31,691 bases of DNA, from positions 1 to 31,691 of the IMG/VR virus record IMGVR_UViG_3300042368_000426, one strand, 5' to 3'. A model generated the notes under the pieces. It saw only the letters and a list, made by a program, of their open reading frames with translations. It was not told the DNA's origin and searched no databases. Of the stretch, positions 2,643-10,210 are shown one piece after another. The DNA is from a virus. Numbering within the stretch: the first letter of the stretch is position 1; each line of letters begins with the position of its first letter. A program made the translations under genes and the position numbers.

Positions 2643-3341
2643 ATGGACATACAATGCCAACATTGCGAAAGCTACTTAAACATTAGAGAAGTAGTTACAC
2701 GTTGTACTGAATGCAAAGAATTATTAAAAACAAAAACAAACAATATGAAAGCAACATTAGACAATTTTTTAGTAAAATGGGACGGAAACAACCCACTCTG
2801 GAAAGAGTTAATTGAGTGGTTGAATAAAGATACCAATAATAATTTATTTAGCGGGGACGTGGAAAGTAGATATTATGGGCGCATAGAAGGGGAAAGGAGA
2901 TGCCCTGAGTCATATAGGCTAATTGATGAATTAATAAATACACCAATTATCTCTTTAGAGGATTGGAAACAATTAATAAATAAAACAAACAATATGAACC
3001 CATTTAAAGAAAAAGACACCGTTTATCATTACAAATATGGTGAAGGTAAAGTAATAGAAGTTCAAAATGACACAGTATTAGTTCAATATGAAGACAAAAG
3101 CTATTGGCATTCAGAATTAACGCTACTTTCATTTGCTCCTTATAAACTCGAAGGGTTTACGCAAGAAAGACCGTTTACTCTAGAAGTGGGTGAGTATTAT
3201 TATTTTTGGGATGTTGAAACAATAATGAATGATGCCGTTGGATATGGCAGGCTAAAACAGATAAGCAATAACATTAACTTTCCTTACTTTTTTGGTACGA
3301 AGTATTTTCAATTTTGCTCAGATAAAAACCCTTTACTATGA
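2643..3341 (+). CDS. Three-part hypothetical protein with zinc ribbon
   Basis: The frame extends back to 2580, but the ATG at 2643 lies two bases after the previous stop and opens a clear zinc ribbon (C5-x2-C8 and C21-x2-C24), so I start there (232 aa). Residues 35-117 (starting MKATLDNFLVKWDGNNP) look like a stand-alone small phage protein. Residues 118-232 (starting MNPFKEKDTVYHYKYGEGKV) contain a Tudor- or CarD-like beta barrel pattern (YHYKYGEGKVIEV, VQYEDKSYW). Both internal Met codons are preceded by the same sequence, AAACAAACAAT, which resembles this phage's translation leaders. It may therefore be a fusion of three genes, or three overlapping products. Function unknown. Confidence 0.65.
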   Translation: MDIQCQHCESYLNIREVVTRCTECKELLKTKTNNMKATLDNFLVKWDGNNPLWKELIEWLNKDTNNNLFSGDVESRYYGRIEGERRCPESYRLIDELINTPIISLEDWKQLINKTNNMNPFKEKDTVYHYKYGEGKVIEVQNDTVLVQYEDKSYWHSELTLLSFAPYKLEGFTQERPFTLEVGEYYYFWDVETIMNDAVGYGRLKQISNNINFPYFFGTKYFQFCSDKNPLL

Positions 3342-3636: not shown

Positions 3637-3971
3637 AGCATAAACTAAACATAAAGCCATTATCAGTTAACCAAGCATGGCAGGGCAAACGGTTTAAAAC
3701 ACCTTTATACAAAAAGTATGAGCAAGATTGCCTATTTATGTTGCCAAATTTAAAGTTAGGTTTACCGCCTTACCAAATAAACATTGAAGTAGCTTATAGC
3801 ACTATTGCAGCAGATTTAGACAACTGCATAAAGCCAATGATAGATATTTTACAAAAGAAGTATAACTTTGATGATAAGCACGTTTATAGGCTCGTGGTTG
3901 AAAAGAAAGTAGTAAAAAAGGGTAATGAGCACATAGTAATAGAAATAATCGGATATGAAGCCATACACTAA
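3633..3971 (+). CDS. rusA: RusA-family Holliday junction resolvase
   Basis: The 112-residue length and motifs fit RusA: PLSVNQAWQGKRFKT at residues 9-23, and the acidic catalytic region AADLDNCIKPMIDIL at 59-73 (D61, D63, D71) followed by NFDDKHV (78-84, D80/D81). RusA dimers cut Holliday junctions using metal held by such Asp residues. It lies between the DnaA-like gene and an HNH gene, with 4-base and 17-base overlaps, in the Erf recombination module, and likely resolves junctions and branched replication products before packaging. Confidence 0.9.
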   Translation: MKHKLNIKPLSVNQAWQGKRFKTPLYKKYEQDCLFMLPNLKLGLPPYQINIEVAYSTIAADLDNCIKPMIDILQKKYNFDDKHVYRLVVEKKVVKKGNEHIVIEIIGYEAIH

Positions 3972-4212
3972 AATATACTTAAATTATTTTGGTTACGATG
4001 TAAGCGATTTTATACCATGCGAAGTGTGCGAAAAAAAAGCAGTGGACATAAATCACATTGAAGCAAGAAGCAGAAGAAAAGACTTGGTAAATGATATTTC
4101 AAACCTAATGGCAATGTGTAGAAAGTGCCATATTGATTTTGGCGATAAAAAACAGCACAAAGAATTTTTACAAAACATTCATAACAAAAAGTTAAATGTT
4201 CAGCAGCCATAG
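3955..4212 (+). CDS. Small HNH endonuclease
   Basis: An 85-residue protein with a compact HNH (beta-beta-alpha metal) domain: C22-x2-C25, then DINHIEARS (D31, H34), N50 in ISNLMAMC, and C55-x2-C58-H59 in CRKCH. Both zinc Cys pairs and the H-N-H residues are present, so the nuclease could be active. Small phage HNH proteins assist terminase cleavage or recombination. This one is far from the terminase genes and follows RusA, so I favour a recombination or homing-type role. It overlaps the next gene by 17 bases. Confidence 0.8.
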   Translation: MKPYTKIYLNYFGYDVSDFIPCEVCEKKAVDINHIEARSRRKDLVNDISNLMAMCRKCHIDFGDKKQHKEFLQNIHNKKLNVQQP

Positions 4213-4420
4213 ACACTTAGACCGAAAAGAGGGCAACCCCATAAAGGGAAGTATAGTAACTTCTTTAAAAACAGGCAATAGGTTTAGAATAGTAAATATT
4301 GGATTTAACACAAAATTTGAAGTCATTAAATACTATTTTCAAACGGCATCTTCTAAAGATGGTAGGGTTCACGAATTTGATTTAAACGATTTTTGGGAAA
4401 CATTTACAACTATGAATTGA
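4196..4420 (+). CDS. Hypothetical protein (74 aa)
   Basis: Starts within the HNH gene and ends just before a structured leader. The central part, IKGSIVTSLKTGNRFRIVNI, reads as a small beta-barrel core; the rest is aromatic and charged. No Cys motif or membrane segment. I do not recognise the family. It is the last gene of the first early operon. Confidence 0.55.
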   Translation: MFSSHRHLDRKEGNPIKGSIVTSLKTGNRFRIVNIGFNTKFEVIKYYFQTASSKDGRVHEFDLNDFWETFTTMN

Positions 4421-4534
4421 AAATTATTTACTAATATTGCAAAAGGTTGTGCAGAGCCTATATCTAACCTTATTAGCCCTTATTTGTGAAAGAAGCCTGC
4501 ACGCTTCGAGTAGCGGTAGGGGCGTTTTAATTTT
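4421..4534 (+). promoter_or_regulatory. Structured leader with complementary hairpin loops
   Basis: Hairpin 1 pairs AAGGTT (4443-4448) with AACCTT (4466-4471). Hairpin 2 has an outer stem, GCCCTTAT (4476-4483) with GGTAGGGGC bases 4516-4523 (three G-T wobbles), and an inner stem, GAAGC (4492-4496) with GCTTC (4503-4507), whose loop is exactly CTGCAC (4497-4502). That loop is a perfect complement of GTGCAG (4449-4454) in the hairpin 1 loop, so a 6-bp kissing contact is possible. TTTTAATTTT follows the outer stem and abuts the ATG at 4535. A weak -7-like TAATATTG lies at 4432-4439. It looks like a terminator-type attenuator controlling the helicase-methylase gene. Confidence 0.55.
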
Positions 4535-6697
4535 ATGACATACGAACAATTTTTAGAAACAAAACAAAAGACACACACCGAAAGCGGATTTGAAGTGTCA
4601 GATGAAAAACTGAACGGCTATTTATTTCCGTTCCAAAAGTTTATTGTTAAACGAGCATTAAAAGCGGGTAAGTATGCAATATTTGCCGACTGCGGATTAG
4701 GCAAAACCTTAATGCAGCTTAGTTGGGCTGAAAAAGTTGCAAATCAAACCAATAAAAAAGTGCTTGTATTAGCCCCTTTAGTTGTAGTAGAACAAACCAA
4801 ACGTGAGGCAGTAAAGTTTGGTATTCCTATTGAATTTATTGATGCTGACAATTACGAGCAATTAAATAATATTGATGCGTATTCTTATGGTGGTGTTGTT
4901 TTAGATGAAAGTTCAATACTAAAAAACTTTGAGGGTGAAACTAAAAAACTTATATTAAAAAAGTTTAAATACACCCCTTATAAATTAGCTTGCACTGCTA
5001 CGCCATCACCCAACGACCCTATGGAATTAGGCAACCATAGCGAGTTTTTAGACGTAATGAGTCGTAATGAAATGCTTGCAATGTACTTTGTACATGATGG
5101 CGGGGAAACTGCAAAATGGCGGTTAAAAGGACACGCTACTAAATTGTTTTATCAGTTTATTGGAACATGGGCTATAATGCTTAATAAGCCTCAAGATATA
5201 GGTTTTGAAATGGTAGGATATGCTTTGCCTCAACTAAACTTAATTGAAAAGCAAATAGTAACTAACAAACGAGATAATGGCAGTTTATTTAATAATACAG
5301 CTATTTCTGCAACTAACTTTAACCAAGAGTTACGATTGACAAAAGAAGAAAGATTAAATGAGGTAGTAAGTATTGTAAAATCAAAACCAGATGAAAACTT
5401 TATTATTTGGATAAAGCAAAATGAAGAGGGCGAAATGCTTAGAAAACTATTGCCAGAAGCAGTTGAGGTAAAAGGTTCTGATACTAACGAATGGAAAAAA
5501 GAAAAGCTATTAGGATTTGCAAATAATGATTTTAAAATTTTAATAACCAAAACTAAAATTGCAAGTTTCGGAATGAATTTTCAGAATTGCCGTAACCAAA
5601 TATTTGCTTCCTTAGACTTTAGTTTTGAGGGATTATATCAAGCTATTAGGCGTTCATACCGTTTCGGTCAAAAAGAAGAAGTAAATATTTATCTAATAAC
5701 CACAGACACAATGGCGAACGTCATTGATTCAATTAACAAAAAACAAAAACAATTTGAAATTATGCAAGATGAAATGAGTAAAGCAATAAACGAAAATCTA
5801 AAAGGAAACTCTATGACAGTTTCTAATTTTGACACTGAAGAAGTTAATAATGAATGGTATAATATTAGGCGTGGCGACAGCGTTAAGCTAATTAAAAACA
5901 TACCAGATGAAAGCATTGGTTTAAGTGTTTTTAGCCCGCCATTTGCTGAACTATACACATATTCAAGTCATTTAGAGGATATGGGAAACTCTAAAGATTA
6001 TAAAGAGTTTTTAACTCAATTTGGTTTTTTAATAAAAGACCTCTACCGAGTAATGATGCAGGGCAGGAATGTTGCAGTTCATTGTATGGATTTGCCTATT
6101 CAAAAAGGTAAAGAGGGATTTATTGGTTTAAGAGATTTTAGTGGAATGATATTAAAAGCATTTGAAGAAGTTGGGTTTGTTTATGCAAGCCGTATAACCA
6201 TTTGGAAAGACCCAGTAGTAGAAATGCAACGCACTAAGGCATTAGGGTTGCTTCATAAACAAGTTAAAAAAGACAGCACAATGTCAAGGGTTGGCATTCC
6301 TGACTATGTAATGATTTTTAGAAAAGATGGCGAAAGAAATAACCCAGTAACAAATACTGAATTATCTGTTGACCTTTGGCAAAAATACGCTTCACCTGTA
6401 TGGATGGATATTGACTACGGAAATACTTTACAAGGTTATAGAAATGGACGTGAAGATAATGACGAAAAGCATATTTGCCCTTTACAATTAGATACTATTG
6501 CAAGGTTAATACATTTGTATTCAAACAAAAATGATACTGTATTTACTCCGTTTATGGGGATTGGAAGCGAAGTATTTCAAGCTGTTAAGATGGGTAGAAA
6601 AGGAATAGGATTTGAGTTAAAAGAAAGTTATTTTGATTTAGCTAAAAAGAATTTGCAATCGGTTATTCAGGAAAAAAAACAAGCTGAACTATTTTAA
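4535..6697 (+). CDS. SF2 helicase fused to DNA methyltransferase
   Basis: A 720-residue two-domain protein. Residues 1-400 are a SNF2/DEAD-type helicase: Walker A GLGKT (54-58), motif II DESS (124-127), motif III TATPSPND (154-161), and motif VI QAIRRSYRFGQ (369-379). Residues 440-715 are a methyltransferase: catalytic motif IV SPPF (467-470), SAM-binding FMGIGSE (673-679) and acidic FELKESYF (693-700). Motif IV precedes motif I, which is the beta-class order of N6-adenine and N4-cytosine enzymes. No nuclease motif is visible. It probably methylates phage DNA, perhaps moving along it, to evade host restriction; a replication role is possible. It is the only gene between two leaders. Confidence 0.88.
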   Translation: MTYEQFLETKQKTHTESGFEVSDEKLNGYLFPFQKFIVKRALKAGKYAIFADCGLGKTLMQLSWAEKVANQTNKKVLVLAPLVVVEQTKREAVKFGIPIEFIDADNYEQLNNIDAYSYGGVVLDESSILKNFEGETKKLILKKFKYTPYKLACTATPSPNDPMELGNHSEFLDVMSRNEMLAMYFVHDGGETAKWRLKGHATKLFYQFIGTWAIMLNKPQDIGFEMVGYALPQLNLIEKQIVTNKRDNGSLFNNTAISATNFNQELRLTKEERLNEVVSIVKSKPDENFIIWIKQNEEGEMLRKLLPEAVEVKGSDTNEWKKEKLLGFANNDFKILITKTKIASFGMNFQNCRNQIFASLDFSFEGLYQAIRRSYRFGQKEEVNIYLITTDTMANVIDSINKKQKQFEIMQDEMSKAINENLKGNSMTVSNFDTEEVNNEWYNIRRGDSVKLIKNIPDESIGLSVFSPPFAELYTYSSHLEDMGNSKDYKEFLTQFGFLIKDLYRVMMQGRNVAVHCMDLPIQKGKEGFIGLRDFSGMILKAFEEVGFVYASRITIWKDPVVEMQRTKALGLLHKQVKKDSTMSRVGIPDYVMIFRKDGERNNPVTNTELSVDLWQKYASPVWMDIDYGNTLQGYRNGREDNDEKHICPLQLDTIARLIHLYSNKNDTVFTPFMGIGSEVFQAVKMGRKGIGFELKESYFDLAKKNLQSVIQEKKQAELF

Positions 6698-6722: not shown

Positions 6723-6747
6723 AAGCCTCCAGAAATGGGGGCTTTTT
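6723..6747 (+). terminator. Intrinsic terminator after helicase-methylase gene
   Basis: AAGCCTCC (6723-6730) pairs with GGGGGCTT (6737-6744) over eight base pairs (one T-G wobble) around the loop AGAAAT, followed by T residues to 6747. It lies 25 bases after the stop of the helicase-methyltransferase gene and separates it from the next transcription unit. Confidence 0.85.
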
Positions 6748-6953: not shown

Positions 6954-6961
6954 TATCTTTG
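6954..6961 (+). promoter_or_regulatory. Promoter -7 element for primase operon
   Basis: TATCTTTG matches the Bacteroidota -7 consensus TAnnTTTG. A recognisable TTTA lies about 22 bases upstream (6928-6931), inside the 12-bp palindrome 6921-6932. The predicted start of transcription is near 6966, exactly where the first leader hairpin begins. It would drive the leader and the genes from 7139 onward. Confidence 0.65.
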
Positions 6962-6965
6962 TGCT

Positions 6966-7138
6966 ATTCAGTTAACGCCTGAATAATGATGCCTGCACTA
7001 TGGTCGGTTTGTCGCCAGAAGCAGGTACAATGAAAATTACAACATTTGCTTTAGAGGGGTTTATGTTGTTTAAATATTACTTAACTAATAGCCTTTTGAT
7101 TTCTGCCTCTAACAGTTATTAAAAGGCATTATTTTTTT
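6966..7138 (+). promoter_or_regulatory. Structured 5' leader with terminator abutting the start codon
   Basis: From the 5' end: ATTCAG (6966-6971) pairs with CTGAAT (6979-6984). GCCTGC (6991-6996) pairs with GCAGGT (7021-7026), with an inner TGG/CCA. ACAACAT (7039-7045) pairs with ATGTTGT (7063-7069). GCCTTTT (7091-7097) pairs with AAAAGGC (7121-7127), followed by ATTATTTTTTT and then the ATG at 7139. The loop of the third hairpin contains TTAGAGG (7051-7057), and the loop of the terminator contains CCTCTAA (7106-7112), a perfect 7-bp complement. This suggests a kissing-loop or antiterminator switch acting on transcription into the primase operon. Confidence 0.6.
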
Positions 7139-7405
7139 ATGCAAATAGTTTGTAAAAAATGCGGAACGGTTGACGATTATAGAACCGAAGTAAAAGCCAA
7201 TAATCATTGTGCTTACTGTAACTCCTGTGGTTCATTTATTAAAAACATTCCTGTTTCAAAGCCTAAAATGCACTTTGGAAAGTATACAGGTCAATATATT
7301 GATGAGATAACAGATAGGCAATATCTACAATGGGCATTTAATAACCTCGAAAAGTTAAATGCAAGAACCAGAGATGCTATTCAAAAACAATTAAACAGCC
7401 TATAA
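7139..7405 (+). CDS. Zinc-finger protein with DUF3820-like domain (88 aa)
   Basis: The N-terminal third carries a Cys cluster (C5-x2-C8, then C24-x2-C27-x2-C30) for one zinc ion. Residues 44-70 (MHFGKYTGQYIDEI...YLQWAF) match the DUF3820-like pattern F-G-K-Y-x-G-x-x-I-x-x-I-x-x-x-Y-L-x-W, found in phage and exonuclease-X-related proteins. The ATG lies directly after the leader's U-tract, and the stop overlaps the primase-helicase ATG (TAATG), so the two are coupled. A replication accessory role is likely from context; the molecular activity is unknown. Confidence 0.7.
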   Translation: MQIVCKKCGTVDDYRTEVKANNHCAYCNSCGSFIKNIPVSKPKMHFGKYTGQYIDEITDRQYLQWAFNNLEKLNARTRDAIQKQLNSL

Positions 7406-9762
7406 TGATAACATATTTTAAAAACATTAAGGCTACATCCACGCCTTTTTACAAGCCTATTCAAGTGGCTATTGATAGAATAAAATCAGGAGTTTCTGCT
7501 GAACTTATTAATAAAATTAGAACTGAAACAGATAAGGATAAACGAAATCAGTTAAAACAGAATTTACCAAGTATTTGTTTTTCTGGTAAATTTCAACAAC
7601 GTAATGATGATGGTTGCCTTGAACATTCAGGTTTTATTTGTTTAGACTTTGATAAGTACGAAAATAATGATTTTGAAGCGGATAGGAAAATGCTTTGTAA
7701 TGATAAGTTTACCTACATTCTTTTTACTTCACCAAGTGGCGATGGCTTAAAAGTTATAATAAAAATACCTGCTGAAAAAGAAAATCATCGTGCATATTTT
7801 AAAGCATTAAAAGAATATTACGATAATCCACATTTTGACGTTTCAAGTATAAACATTAGTAGGGTATGTTATGAAAGTTATGACCCTAATATTTACGTAA
7901 ATACTAATGCTGAAATATGGAAAGACAAAGTAGATATTGAGCCATTAGATAAGTCGGAAACTAAGCCAGTAATTATAATGAAATCATCTAATAAGATAAT
8001 TCAGAATTTGCAGGTTTGGTTTGATAAAAAATATTCAATGCAAGAGGGCAAACGCAATGCTTCATTATTTGCTTTTGCTAAGTCAATGAATGACTTTGGT
8101 GTAGATAAATTTGATTGCATTTCACATTTATTAAAATATGAGCAACAAGATTTTTCAGAACGTGAAATAAAGAGAATTATTGATAGTGCCTATTCTGATA
8201 TATCTAAATTTGGTACACGATACTTTGAAGATAACCAAACTAAAGAGTTTATAGAAGAACAAATAAAATCAGGTAAATCAAAAAAGAAAATAATACAAGA
8301 GTTATCTGATAACTATTCTGAAACAGAAATAGAAAATGCAATAGATGAACTTAAAACCAATGTTTCGGTTGCTGAATTTTGGCAATATGATGACAAAGGA
8401 AAAGTAAAGATTTCAAATATTAAGTTTAAACAATTTTTAGAACAAAACGGATTTAAAAAATTATATCCAGAAGGTAGTGAAAATTTTGTATTTATTAGAG
8501 TTCAAAATAACCTAATTGAAAATACAACGCCAGAACTTATTAAAGATTTTGTTTTAAATTATTTATACAATAAATCTGCACAGGCATATGAATACATGAG
8601 TAGTGCCACTAAGTATTTTAAAGAGGATTATTTGAATTTTCTTGAAACATCAAACATATCATTTTACGAAGATAATATTGATAGCGGTGTTCTTTATTTT
8701 AGGAATGTGGCAGTATTGATTAATAAAGACAATATTCAGCAAATAGACTATTTAAACTTAGATGGGTACTTATGGAAAAAACATATTATTGATAGAGATT
8801 TTGTTTTGTCAAATTTTGACAAGTCTGATTTTGTCAAGTTTATTGAATTGATTTCAGGTAATGATGAGCAGAAAATAAATAGCATGAAGTCAACTATTGG
8901 TTATTTATTGCATGGCTTTAAAACAAGTGCAAATAATAAAGCAGTAATTTTTAATGATGAAACAATAAGTGAAAACCCAAACGGAGGAAGTGGAAAAGGT
9001 ATAATTTGCAATGCTATTTCGCATATAAAAAGAGTATCAGTATTAGATGGTAAACAATTTAATTCTAACAAGCCATTTCCATATCAAACAGTTGGTGCAG
9101 ACACTCAAGTATTGGTTTTTGATGACGTAATGAAAAACTTTGAGTTTGAAAGTTTATTTAGTTTAGTTACCGAAGGCATTACACTTGAAAAGAAAAATAA
9201 AGATGCCGTTAAACTTCCTGTTAAGCGTTCACCTAAAATTATAATTACAACAAATTATACTATTGGAGGTGTTGGTGGTTCACATGAGCGTAGAAAATGG
9301 GAAGTTGAATTATCTTCTTATTTTAGCGCAAAGCACACGCCATTAGATGAATTTAATAGAATGATGTTTGATGATTGGAGTGAGAGGGATTGGCAAATGT
9401 TTGACAACTTTATGATTAATTGTTATCAATACTATTTATCAAATGGATTAGTTAAACATGAATTTCAAAACCTTGAAGTACGTAAATTTATTAAGGCAAC
9501 ATCATTTGAATTTTATGAATATAGTCAAGATAACAATTTGCCTTTAAATCAAAGAATTGATAAAAAAGTATTATTTAATAGTTTCTTAGATGAATATCAG
9601 GATTTTAAAAAGTGGCTTACTCAAAAGAAATTTAGCGCATGGCTTGAGGTATTTGGTAACTATCATAAATACAAAATATTTACAGGTAAAACAGGCGATA
9701 TGAGATGGATTGAATTTTCAACAGATAAACCAATAGAAGATGACACATTCAGCGATTTCTAA
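7405..9762 (+). CDS. Primase-helicase (BT4734/VirE-like N-terminus, SF3 helicase)
   Basis: A 785-residue replication protein. Residues 1-170 resemble the BT4734/VirE N-terminal primase-like domain of Bacteroidota elements: ICLDFDKY (78-85, D81 and D83 as likely metal ligands) and SPSGDGLKVIIK (109-120). Residues 195-270 form a helical PriCT-like linker (KRNASLFAFAKSM, REIKRIIDSAY). Residues 480-680 are an SF3/D5-type helicase: Walker A GGSGKG (527-532), Walker B VLVFDDV (569-575), sensor IIITTNY (612-618) and arginine-finger region HERRKWEVEL (627-636). The primase and helicase are thus in one chain, as in P4 alpha. It should prime and unwind at the phage origin and be the main replication enzyme. 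Confidence 0.85.
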   Translation: MITYFKNIKATSTPFYKPIQVAIDRIKSGVSAELINKIRTETDKDKRNQLKQNLPSICFSGKFQQRNDDGCLEHSGFICLDFDKYENNDFEADRKMLCNDKFTYILFTSPSGDGLKVIIKIPAEKENHRAYFKALKEYYDNPHFDVSSINISRVCYESYDPNIYVNTNAEIWKDKVDIEPLDKSETKPVIIMKSSNKIIQNLQVWFDKKYSMQEGKRNASLFAFAKSMNDFGVDKFDCISHLLKYEQQDFSEREIKRIIDSAYSDISKFGTRYFEDNQTKEFIEEQIKSGKSKKKIIQELSDNYSETEIENAIDELKTNVSVAEFWQYDDKGKVKISNIKFKQFLEQNGFKKLYPEGSENFVFIRVQNNLIENTTPELIKDFVLNYLYNKSAQAYEYMSSATKYFKEDYLNFLETSNISFYEDNIDSGVLYFRNVAVLINKDNIQQIDYLNLDGYLWKKHIIDRDFVLSNFDKSDFVKFIELISGNDEQKINSMKSTIGYLLHGFKTSANNKAVIFNDETISENPNGGSGKGIICNAISHIKRVSVLDGKQFNSNKPFPYQTVGADTQVLVFDDVMKNFEFESLFSLVTEGITLEKKNKDAVKLPVKRSPKIIITTNYTIGGVGGSHERRKWEVELSSYFSAKHTPLDEFNRMMFDDWSERDWQMFDNFMINCYQYYLSNGLVKHEFQNLEVRKFIKATSFEFYEYSQDNNLPLNQRIDKKVLFNSFLDEYQDFKKWLTQKKFSAWLEVFGNYHKYKIFTGKTGDMRWIEFSTDKPIEDDTFSDF

Positions 9763-10210
9763 ACTTGTAGAATTAAAGAAGCAACATTACCGAACTGAAT
9801 ATCCGAATATGCCAGAACATACACTGCCAACGCCAAAGTATTTAGATAAGACAGCTAACGGATTGACTAAATGCGTTATTGACTTTATTACTTTATCAGG
9901 AGGAATGGCAGAAAGAATATCCAATACAGGTCGATATGTAGATGGTAGGGTTAAATATATCGATGTATTAGGGCATACACGAGAATTTGGAAGCGGTAAA
10001 TGGATAAAAGGTAGCGGAACTTTAGGCACTGCCGACATTAGCGCAGTAGTTAATGGAAAGACTATAAAAATTGAAATAAAAATAGGCAAAGACAGGCAAA
10101 GCGAACATCAAAAAAAGTATCAAGAAATGATTGAACGTGCAGGCGGTGAGTATTGGATAGTGAAGAATTTTGAAGAATTTTATAATAGATTTTTAAACAT
10201 AAATAACTAA
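9740..10210 (+). CDS. VRR-NUC/PD-(D/E)xK nuclease
   Basis: The C-terminal half shows the PD-(D/E)xK core: GTADI (96-100, D99), IEIK (111-114, E112 and K114), and Q124 in SEHQKKYQEMIERAGG, ending in YWIVKNFEEFY. The spacing and the helix after the catalytic Lys match small VRR-NUC and Hjc-like nucleases. It likely cuts branched or flap DNA during replication. It overlaps the primase-helicase gene by 23 bases and probably works with it. Exact substrate cannot be told from sequence. Confidence 0.78.
   Translation: MTHSAISKLVELKKQHYRTEYPNMPEHTLPTPKYLDKTANGLTKCVIDFITLSGGMAERISNTGRYVDGRVKYIDVLGHTREFGSGKWIKGSGTLGTADISAVVNGKTIKIEIKIGKDRQSEHQKKYQEMIERAGGEYWIVKNFEEFYNRFLNINN

Follow-up and report, generated by a model that had tools for sequence, protein, structure and literature searches.

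A kissing-hairpin leader RNA conserved by loop complementarity ahead of replication genes in Bacteroidota phages, with a candidate cis-regulatory role

We describe a leader element in which the apical loops of two successive hairpins are predicted to pair with one another, found in virus record IMGVR_UViG_3300042368_000426 (the window, meaning the whole stretch of 31,691 nt that was analysed) and in relatives collected through their proteins. Comparative data support a design consisting of two hairpins, a kissing helix of 6-8 bp, a terminator-like 3′ hairpin and a U-tract that leads up to the ATG of an early gene. Because the pairing letters vary between viruses yet still match, the element emerges as a real and widespread regulatory RNA. 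The conserved kissing pair is almost certainly a genuine structure, and the window leader very probably belongs to a phage-borne class of RNAs that act in cis. This class is apparently undescribed and widespread in Bacteroidota phages.

The leader that led us to this class lies at 6966-7138, with a putative transcription start near 6966 that fits the promoter-like box upstream of it (Table 1). A preliminary description of this DNA had placed two hairpins with complementary loops, a U-tract, the ATG at 7139 and a further hairpin at 6966-6984, and every coordinate was confirmed. In a first scan of the window's + strand, no kissing pair scored higher than hairpins A and B; the pair ranked second in an RNAfold-based scan of the same strand, where the copy at 4444-4523 came ahead. 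The score of the leader was reached by 1 of 4000 dinucleotide shuffles, and by none of 4000 when a T-tail was required; folding of 6966-7150 gave z = -2.4. The purpose-built look that the preliminary description had attributed to the whole 170-base leader held up, but the unit proved to be hairpins A and B (~93 nt): H1 and H2 (6966-7027) were absent from the other leaders compared, and H1 probably lies outside the core element, since other elements do without it. The primase operon assigned to this leader does contain a primase-like gene, at 7405, but its first gene encodes the Zn-ribbon/ExoX-C-like protein of 88 aa. A similarity search of known-phage DNA with the 7139 leader returned no match. 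Upstream, an ordinary terminator at 6725-6747 (GCCTCCAGAAATGGGGGC, with a T-run) closes the helicase-methylase unit, and ~200 nt of AT-rich DNA separates it from the promoter box at 6954.

The design occurs a second time in the window, at 4444-4534, ahead of the helicase-methylase gene, with a score reached by 0/4000 dinucleotide shuffles. Its hairpin B carries an AGUA/GAA internal loop that is sarcin-ricin-like with the strands swapped, and its comparison with known-phage DNA gave short AT-rich matches only. Together with its promoter, this element (window 4444-4535) is 100% identical to positions 2237-2290 of locus L144 in genome G007, where a different gene begins just past the start codon, as if genes had been swapped behind the leader. 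The heptamer CCTGCAC occurs both in H2 of the 7139 leader (6992-6998) and in the loop of hairpin B in the second element (4496-4502), which in principle would let each window leader engage the partner loop of the other; the coincidence may be due to chance. The sequence GAARCCTGCACGYTTC was considered as a family signature and rejected: the window-like copies, L049 and L010 were real, and the remaining matches were attributable to chance. Finally, positions 20-92 of the window contain a TATCTTAG box together with a terminator-like hairpin (AAGCC..GGGCTT), and TTTTTTT immediately ahead of an ATG; an exact loop complement was not seen there, and this region, at the edge of the contig, may be an element that has degenerated or been truncated.

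Table 1. Positions of leader parts and adjoining genes in the window, and of elements in other sequences.
Sequence	Feature	Positions	Strand	Remark
Window, 7139 leader	Promoter-like -7 box TATCTTTG (TAnnTTTG type, Bacteroidota -7 type)	6954-6961	+	Read from sequence
Window, 7139 leader	5′ hairpin H1, ATTCAG/CTGAAT, loop TTAACGC	6966-6984	+	Sequence and fold
Window, 7139 leader	Hairpin H2, TGCCTGC/GCAGGTA	6990-7027	+	Fold
Window, 7139 leader	Hairpin A	7039-7069	+	Arms 7039-7045/7063-7069; kissing word TTAGAGG 7051-7057
Window, 7139 leader	A/U-rich spacer, 16 nt	7070-7085	+	
Window, 7139 leader	Hairpin B, terminator-like	7086-7131	+	Arms 7091-7097/7121-7127
Window, 7139 leader	Kissing word CCTCTAA	7106-7112	+	Within CTG[..]CAG-closed loop of hairpin B
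Window, 7139 leader	U-tract ATTATTTTTTT	7128-7138	+	Runs into start codon ATG 7139
Window	88-aa Zn-ribbon/ExoX-like C-terminal protein	7139-7405	+	First gene after 7139 leader
Window	Primase-like protein (BT4734-like N domain, PriCT_1)	7405-9762	+	Start overlaps preceding stop
Window, second element	Promoter-like TAATATTG	4432-4439	+	
Window, second element	Hairpin A, AGGTT-GTGCAG-AGCCT	4444-4459	+	
Window, second element	Hairpin B, inner hairpin GAAGC-CTGCAC-GCTTC	4476-4523	+	GC-rich outer stem
Window, second element	U-rich tract GTTTTAATTTT	4524-4534	+	Ahead of ATG 4535
Window	720-aa SNF2-like helicase/N6_N4 methylase	4535-6697	+	Gene after second element
Flavobacterium phage FCV-1.01	Elements	35781-35877 and 40263-40357		
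Flavobacterium phage FCL-2	Element	37482-37588		
Flavobacterium phage 11b	Element	33634-33725		
Flavobacterium phage elemoF	Element	9215-9313	-	
L122	Leader with third internal-loop form	3202-3305		
L124	Leader with third internal-loop form	3900-4002		
L133	Leader with third internal-loop form	4420-4528		

Several comparisons indicate that the loop-loop contact is under selection. Orthologs of the Zn-ribbon gene, retrieved with a protein profile independent of the loops (41-59% amino acid identity), have five distinct leaders, and the element was present in 5/5 with five unrelated words: TTAGAGG in the window, AAGGCGAT in L003, GTCAGAG in L283/L284, GTAGGAG in L285 and GTGGAAG in L286. A subfamily search pattern that combined the 3′ stem of A and the spacer with the beginning of the outer stem of B, and excluded the loops, recovered 13 leader-type sequences, every one of which contained a perfect kiss; among unrelated matches to the pattern, even a weak kiss was seen in one only. 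When 12 sequences were aligned, standard pairs filled 97.1% of pair cells and slid controls dropped to 36-54%, while double-sided changes occurred in 35 cells versus 9.2 +/- 2.6 in shuffles (0/500), with compensatory changes at 5/7 pairs of the kissing helix; in one alignment row (L132) the kiss is out of register by a letter, a shift that reduces the score instead of inflating it. Among 127 terminator-like hairpins ahead of an ATG, chosen blind to their loops, 29 had a loop complement of at least 7 nt in the 80 nt upstream, where loops taken from other leaders would predict 3.1. The compensatory changes and orthologous leaders bear out the loop-loop contact proposed in the preliminary description, and the covariation anticipated across homologous leaders is present, leaving that claim unrefuted. 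A chance match of the two loops arises at 7 nt in 0.4% of shuffles restricted to them, which is not vanishing for a single case; for the class, chance is refuted by recurrence, ortholog leaders and covariation, and we consider its probability negligible.

Recurrence was quantified with an RNAfold-based scorer that combines the kissing helix, hairpin A and hairpin B with a T-tail count, the T-tail filter of this census biasing it toward terminators. Across 92 loci, nearly all of them relatives (792 kb, both strands), 33 matches with a T-tail scored -36 or lower versus 1 in block-shuffled sequence, and at -39 there were 22 versus 0. The window and 24 other phage contigs (731 kb) yielded 20 strong matches versus 1 when shuffled, and 16 versus 0 at -38; the phage-contig matches were nearly all intergenic and oriented in the sense of the next gene. 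Over all loci we count at least 51 distinct elements, almost all with different words. Host chromosomes as a source of elements were rejected, as 760 kb of Bacteroidota chromosome revealed no enrichment (0 real and 3 shuffled matches at -34 with a T-tail). No element was detected in Staphylococcus 80alpha, Polaribacter Leef_1, Flavobacterium 6H or the scanned part of crAss001, and Cellulophaga phi46:1 yielded none that was convincing; lambda and HK022 gave GC-rich, chance-like matches, so raw scores are not comparable across genomes of unlike composition. Rfam 15 had no family at gathering threshold in the window or 16 element-bearing loci, nor a convincing match at any element at relaxed thresholds. 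A covariance model of subfamily alpha picked up two other elements weakly and, in 296 Bacteroidota genomes, three marginal matches, none element-like. Family models miss this RNA because complementarity, rather than the letters themselves, is conserved.

The genes downstream of elements encode helicase-methylases, primases, replication-initiator-like proteins, HNH nucleases and the Zn-ribbon protein (several by resemblance only), and some helicase-methylase genes have no element in front. Many of these genes encode primases, helicases or replication-initiator-like proteins, which would fit a DNA-level element whose single-strand DNA hairpins serve replication or recombination nearby, and the identical G007 copy before a different gene likewise looks like a swapped module. 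Orientation, however, is fixed relative to promoter, U-tract and ATG, and contigs carry up to three copies with different words, leaving a DNA-level function very improbable.

Across the class, the order is hairpin A, an A/U-rich spacer (82% A+U; median 14 nt), terminator-like hairpin B, U-tract and ATG, mostly with a TAnnTTTG-like motif just 5′ of hairpin A, promoters being called by this motif. The kissing helix spans 7 bp in 29/51 elements and 6-8 bp in 48/51, and word-to-word distance is kept at 39-67 nt (median 44.5). Read from its base, hairpin B usually has a GC-rich outer stem, then an internal loop and then 3-6 bp of inner stem; the kissing word fills almost the whole apical loop. An AGUA/GAA internal loop, in either strand order, was found in 10/41 elements (2 of the 41 rows being blank) versus 0.6 expected, with a maximum of 4 in 2000 shuffles. 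Adjoining the inner stem of B, it resembles the sarcin-ricin (loop E, bulged-G) motif, but the element differs from that motif in that the loop is one recurrent part; other elements carry a 3x3 GGA/AAA loop, also recurrent by eye, or other loops. A third internal-loop form, for example ATAGGT..ACCTCCGC, occurs in the related leaders L122, L124 and L133. The end of hairpin B mostly lies 7-20 nt from the ATG, with a peak at 10-12, which leaves no space for a further promoter, and start regions are U-rich in elements versus A-rich in element-free leaders of the same gene. The element in L003 (3899-3989) combines very strong hairpins with a perfect kiss, has neither a U-tract (AAAACCATTACAATG) nor a clear promoter, and sits directly 3′ of a nuclease-like gene related to window 9740-10210.

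This plan has a described counterpart. The guanidine-IV riboswitch consists of two hairpins that form a loop-loop pseudoknot, and its 3′ member serves as a Rho-independent terminator, after which come U residues and the start codon, so the preliminary statement that no described class has this design was too strong (PMC9788692, PMC11611296). Both the pseudoknotted hairpin pair and the terminator with a U-run reaching the start codon are seen here, the latter by sequence features and except in L003. Guanidine-IV/Gd4v RNAs, however, show high sequence conservation at the pseudoknot and around it, and stand at transporter or acetyltransferase genes (PMC9788692, PMC11611296), whereas here the words vary freely — only a GU within the first three letters of the loop A word recurs, in 28/51 elements — the genes are phage replication genes, and no ligand is indicated. 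Because the conserved loop letters are absent, we do not claim membership; the Rfam copy used, which may lack that family, gave no match at the elements. Passages of one account describe putL and putR of phage HK022 as early leader RNAs of ~70 nt with two stem-loops that require no phage protein, share sequence and bind the β′ zinc-binding domain of polymerase, with putL just downstream of an early promoter (PMC9378689). The word kissing is absent from that account, and the second put hairpin is not described as a terminator in those passages (PMC9378689). A two-stem RNA next to an early phage promoter is found here as well, the promoter by motif only, and on those passages the likeness is confined to place and size. 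In ColE1 RNAI/RNAII and IncI repZ-type systems, kissing loops of 6-7 nt near replication genes exert control through antisense RNA; the loop-loop contact is alike, but here both loops lie within one leader. Searches of an open-access library turned up no described class; a description may exist in unpublished or subscription work, or among unnamed candidates of large structured-RNA screens such as PMC8040213.

We propose that the kiss opposes the terminator. The leader RNA would be transcribed from the promoter just upstream, and hairpin A, folded first, would capture the loop of B once polymerase passes the apex of B. The word-to-word linker, which includes the 5′ arm of B, would then be so tight that the base of B could not readily close, allowing polymerase to read through; were the kiss to fail or form slowly, B would close and transcription would end ahead of the ATG. 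The kiss would thereby act as a tertiary antiterminator that sets expression of replication genes, perhaps gating it via elongation rate or a host factor. On paper, both structures could coexist because kiss and terminator stem involve separate bases. The kiss is favoured as an antiterminator because the linker geometry resembles that of the guanidine-IV riboswitch, for which it is described that, as the stem of the terminator grows, the linker becomes shorter and kissing is counteracted, while kissing itself promotes read-through (PMC11611296, PMC9788692). In a simple coaxial model the spacer bridges the full A-kiss-B stack in only 20/44 elements, a rough estimate given that kissing helices bend and that the stems derive from RNAfold. 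On balance, we lean toward a kiss that raises transcription read-through. The preliminary description had allowed for a kiss or an alternative fold; the kiss pairing stood and the alternative-fold switch fell away, as complementarity to the 5′ arm of B was not above expectation (an upstream complement of at least 6 nt in 4/35 leaders versus 18.7% expected from cross pairs). Nor did a classical terminator/antiterminator switch hold up, as no upstream strand was seen to compete for that arm.

The absence of a U-tract in L003, which keeps its kiss, indicates that termination cannot be the whole story and that translation or stability may matter. Lying near position -11 relative to the AUG, hairpin B and the kiss might act primarily on ribosome access, as a protein operator or in 5′-end protection, with termination secondary. 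The tight spacing between B and the ATG would fit such a role, as would the L003 element, directly behind another gene and with no obvious promoter, and the AGUA/GAA enrichment, loops of this kind being typical sites of protein or tertiary contacts. Against this, start regions are U-rich like terminator tails and unlike the A-rich element-free leaders, and a shared phage protein was not found; we judge a primary effect on translation or mRNA stability to be quite unlikely. A kiss that locks A and B into a compact RNA of ~100 nt could alternatively strengthen termination or yield a stable small RNA, the gene being expressed by leak or from upstream transcripts. Stable small RNAs typically have a 5′ hairpin and a 3′ terminator, a layout that fits the element, and the promoter-like motif and terminator at its opposite ends would delimit a discrete RNA; in three elements (L142, L164 and L144 at 9767), the next ORF of at least 40 aa lies only at 209-368 nt. 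Nearly all elements nevertheless end close to a same-sense ATG, a placement for which an independent RNA gene would have no use, and the unconserved kissing words imply no constant target in trans, so this reading also appears unlikely.

Returning to the kiss as an antiterminator, no phage protein specific to element-bearing phages was found, which is consistent with an RNA acting with host machinery. We tentatively put forward, as a possibility, that the elements form a ligand-free switch class, so far in Bacteroidota phages only, in which drifting letters and a fixed 7-bp kiss would constitute a mechanical antiterminator of early replication genes that needs no phage protein.

Collectively, these results point to a candidate mode of RNA-level control of early genes in Bacteroidota phages, and because the sequenced Flavobacterium phages FCV-1.01, FCL-2, 11b and elemoF carry the element, it is testable now. 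A simple loop-complement scan is applicable to other phage groups. If the proposed mechanism is true, the class would be sequence-blind and invisible to consensus-based searches, and kissing-loop control of a terminator, known from guanidine-IV, would be a general device that operates without a conserved aptamer.
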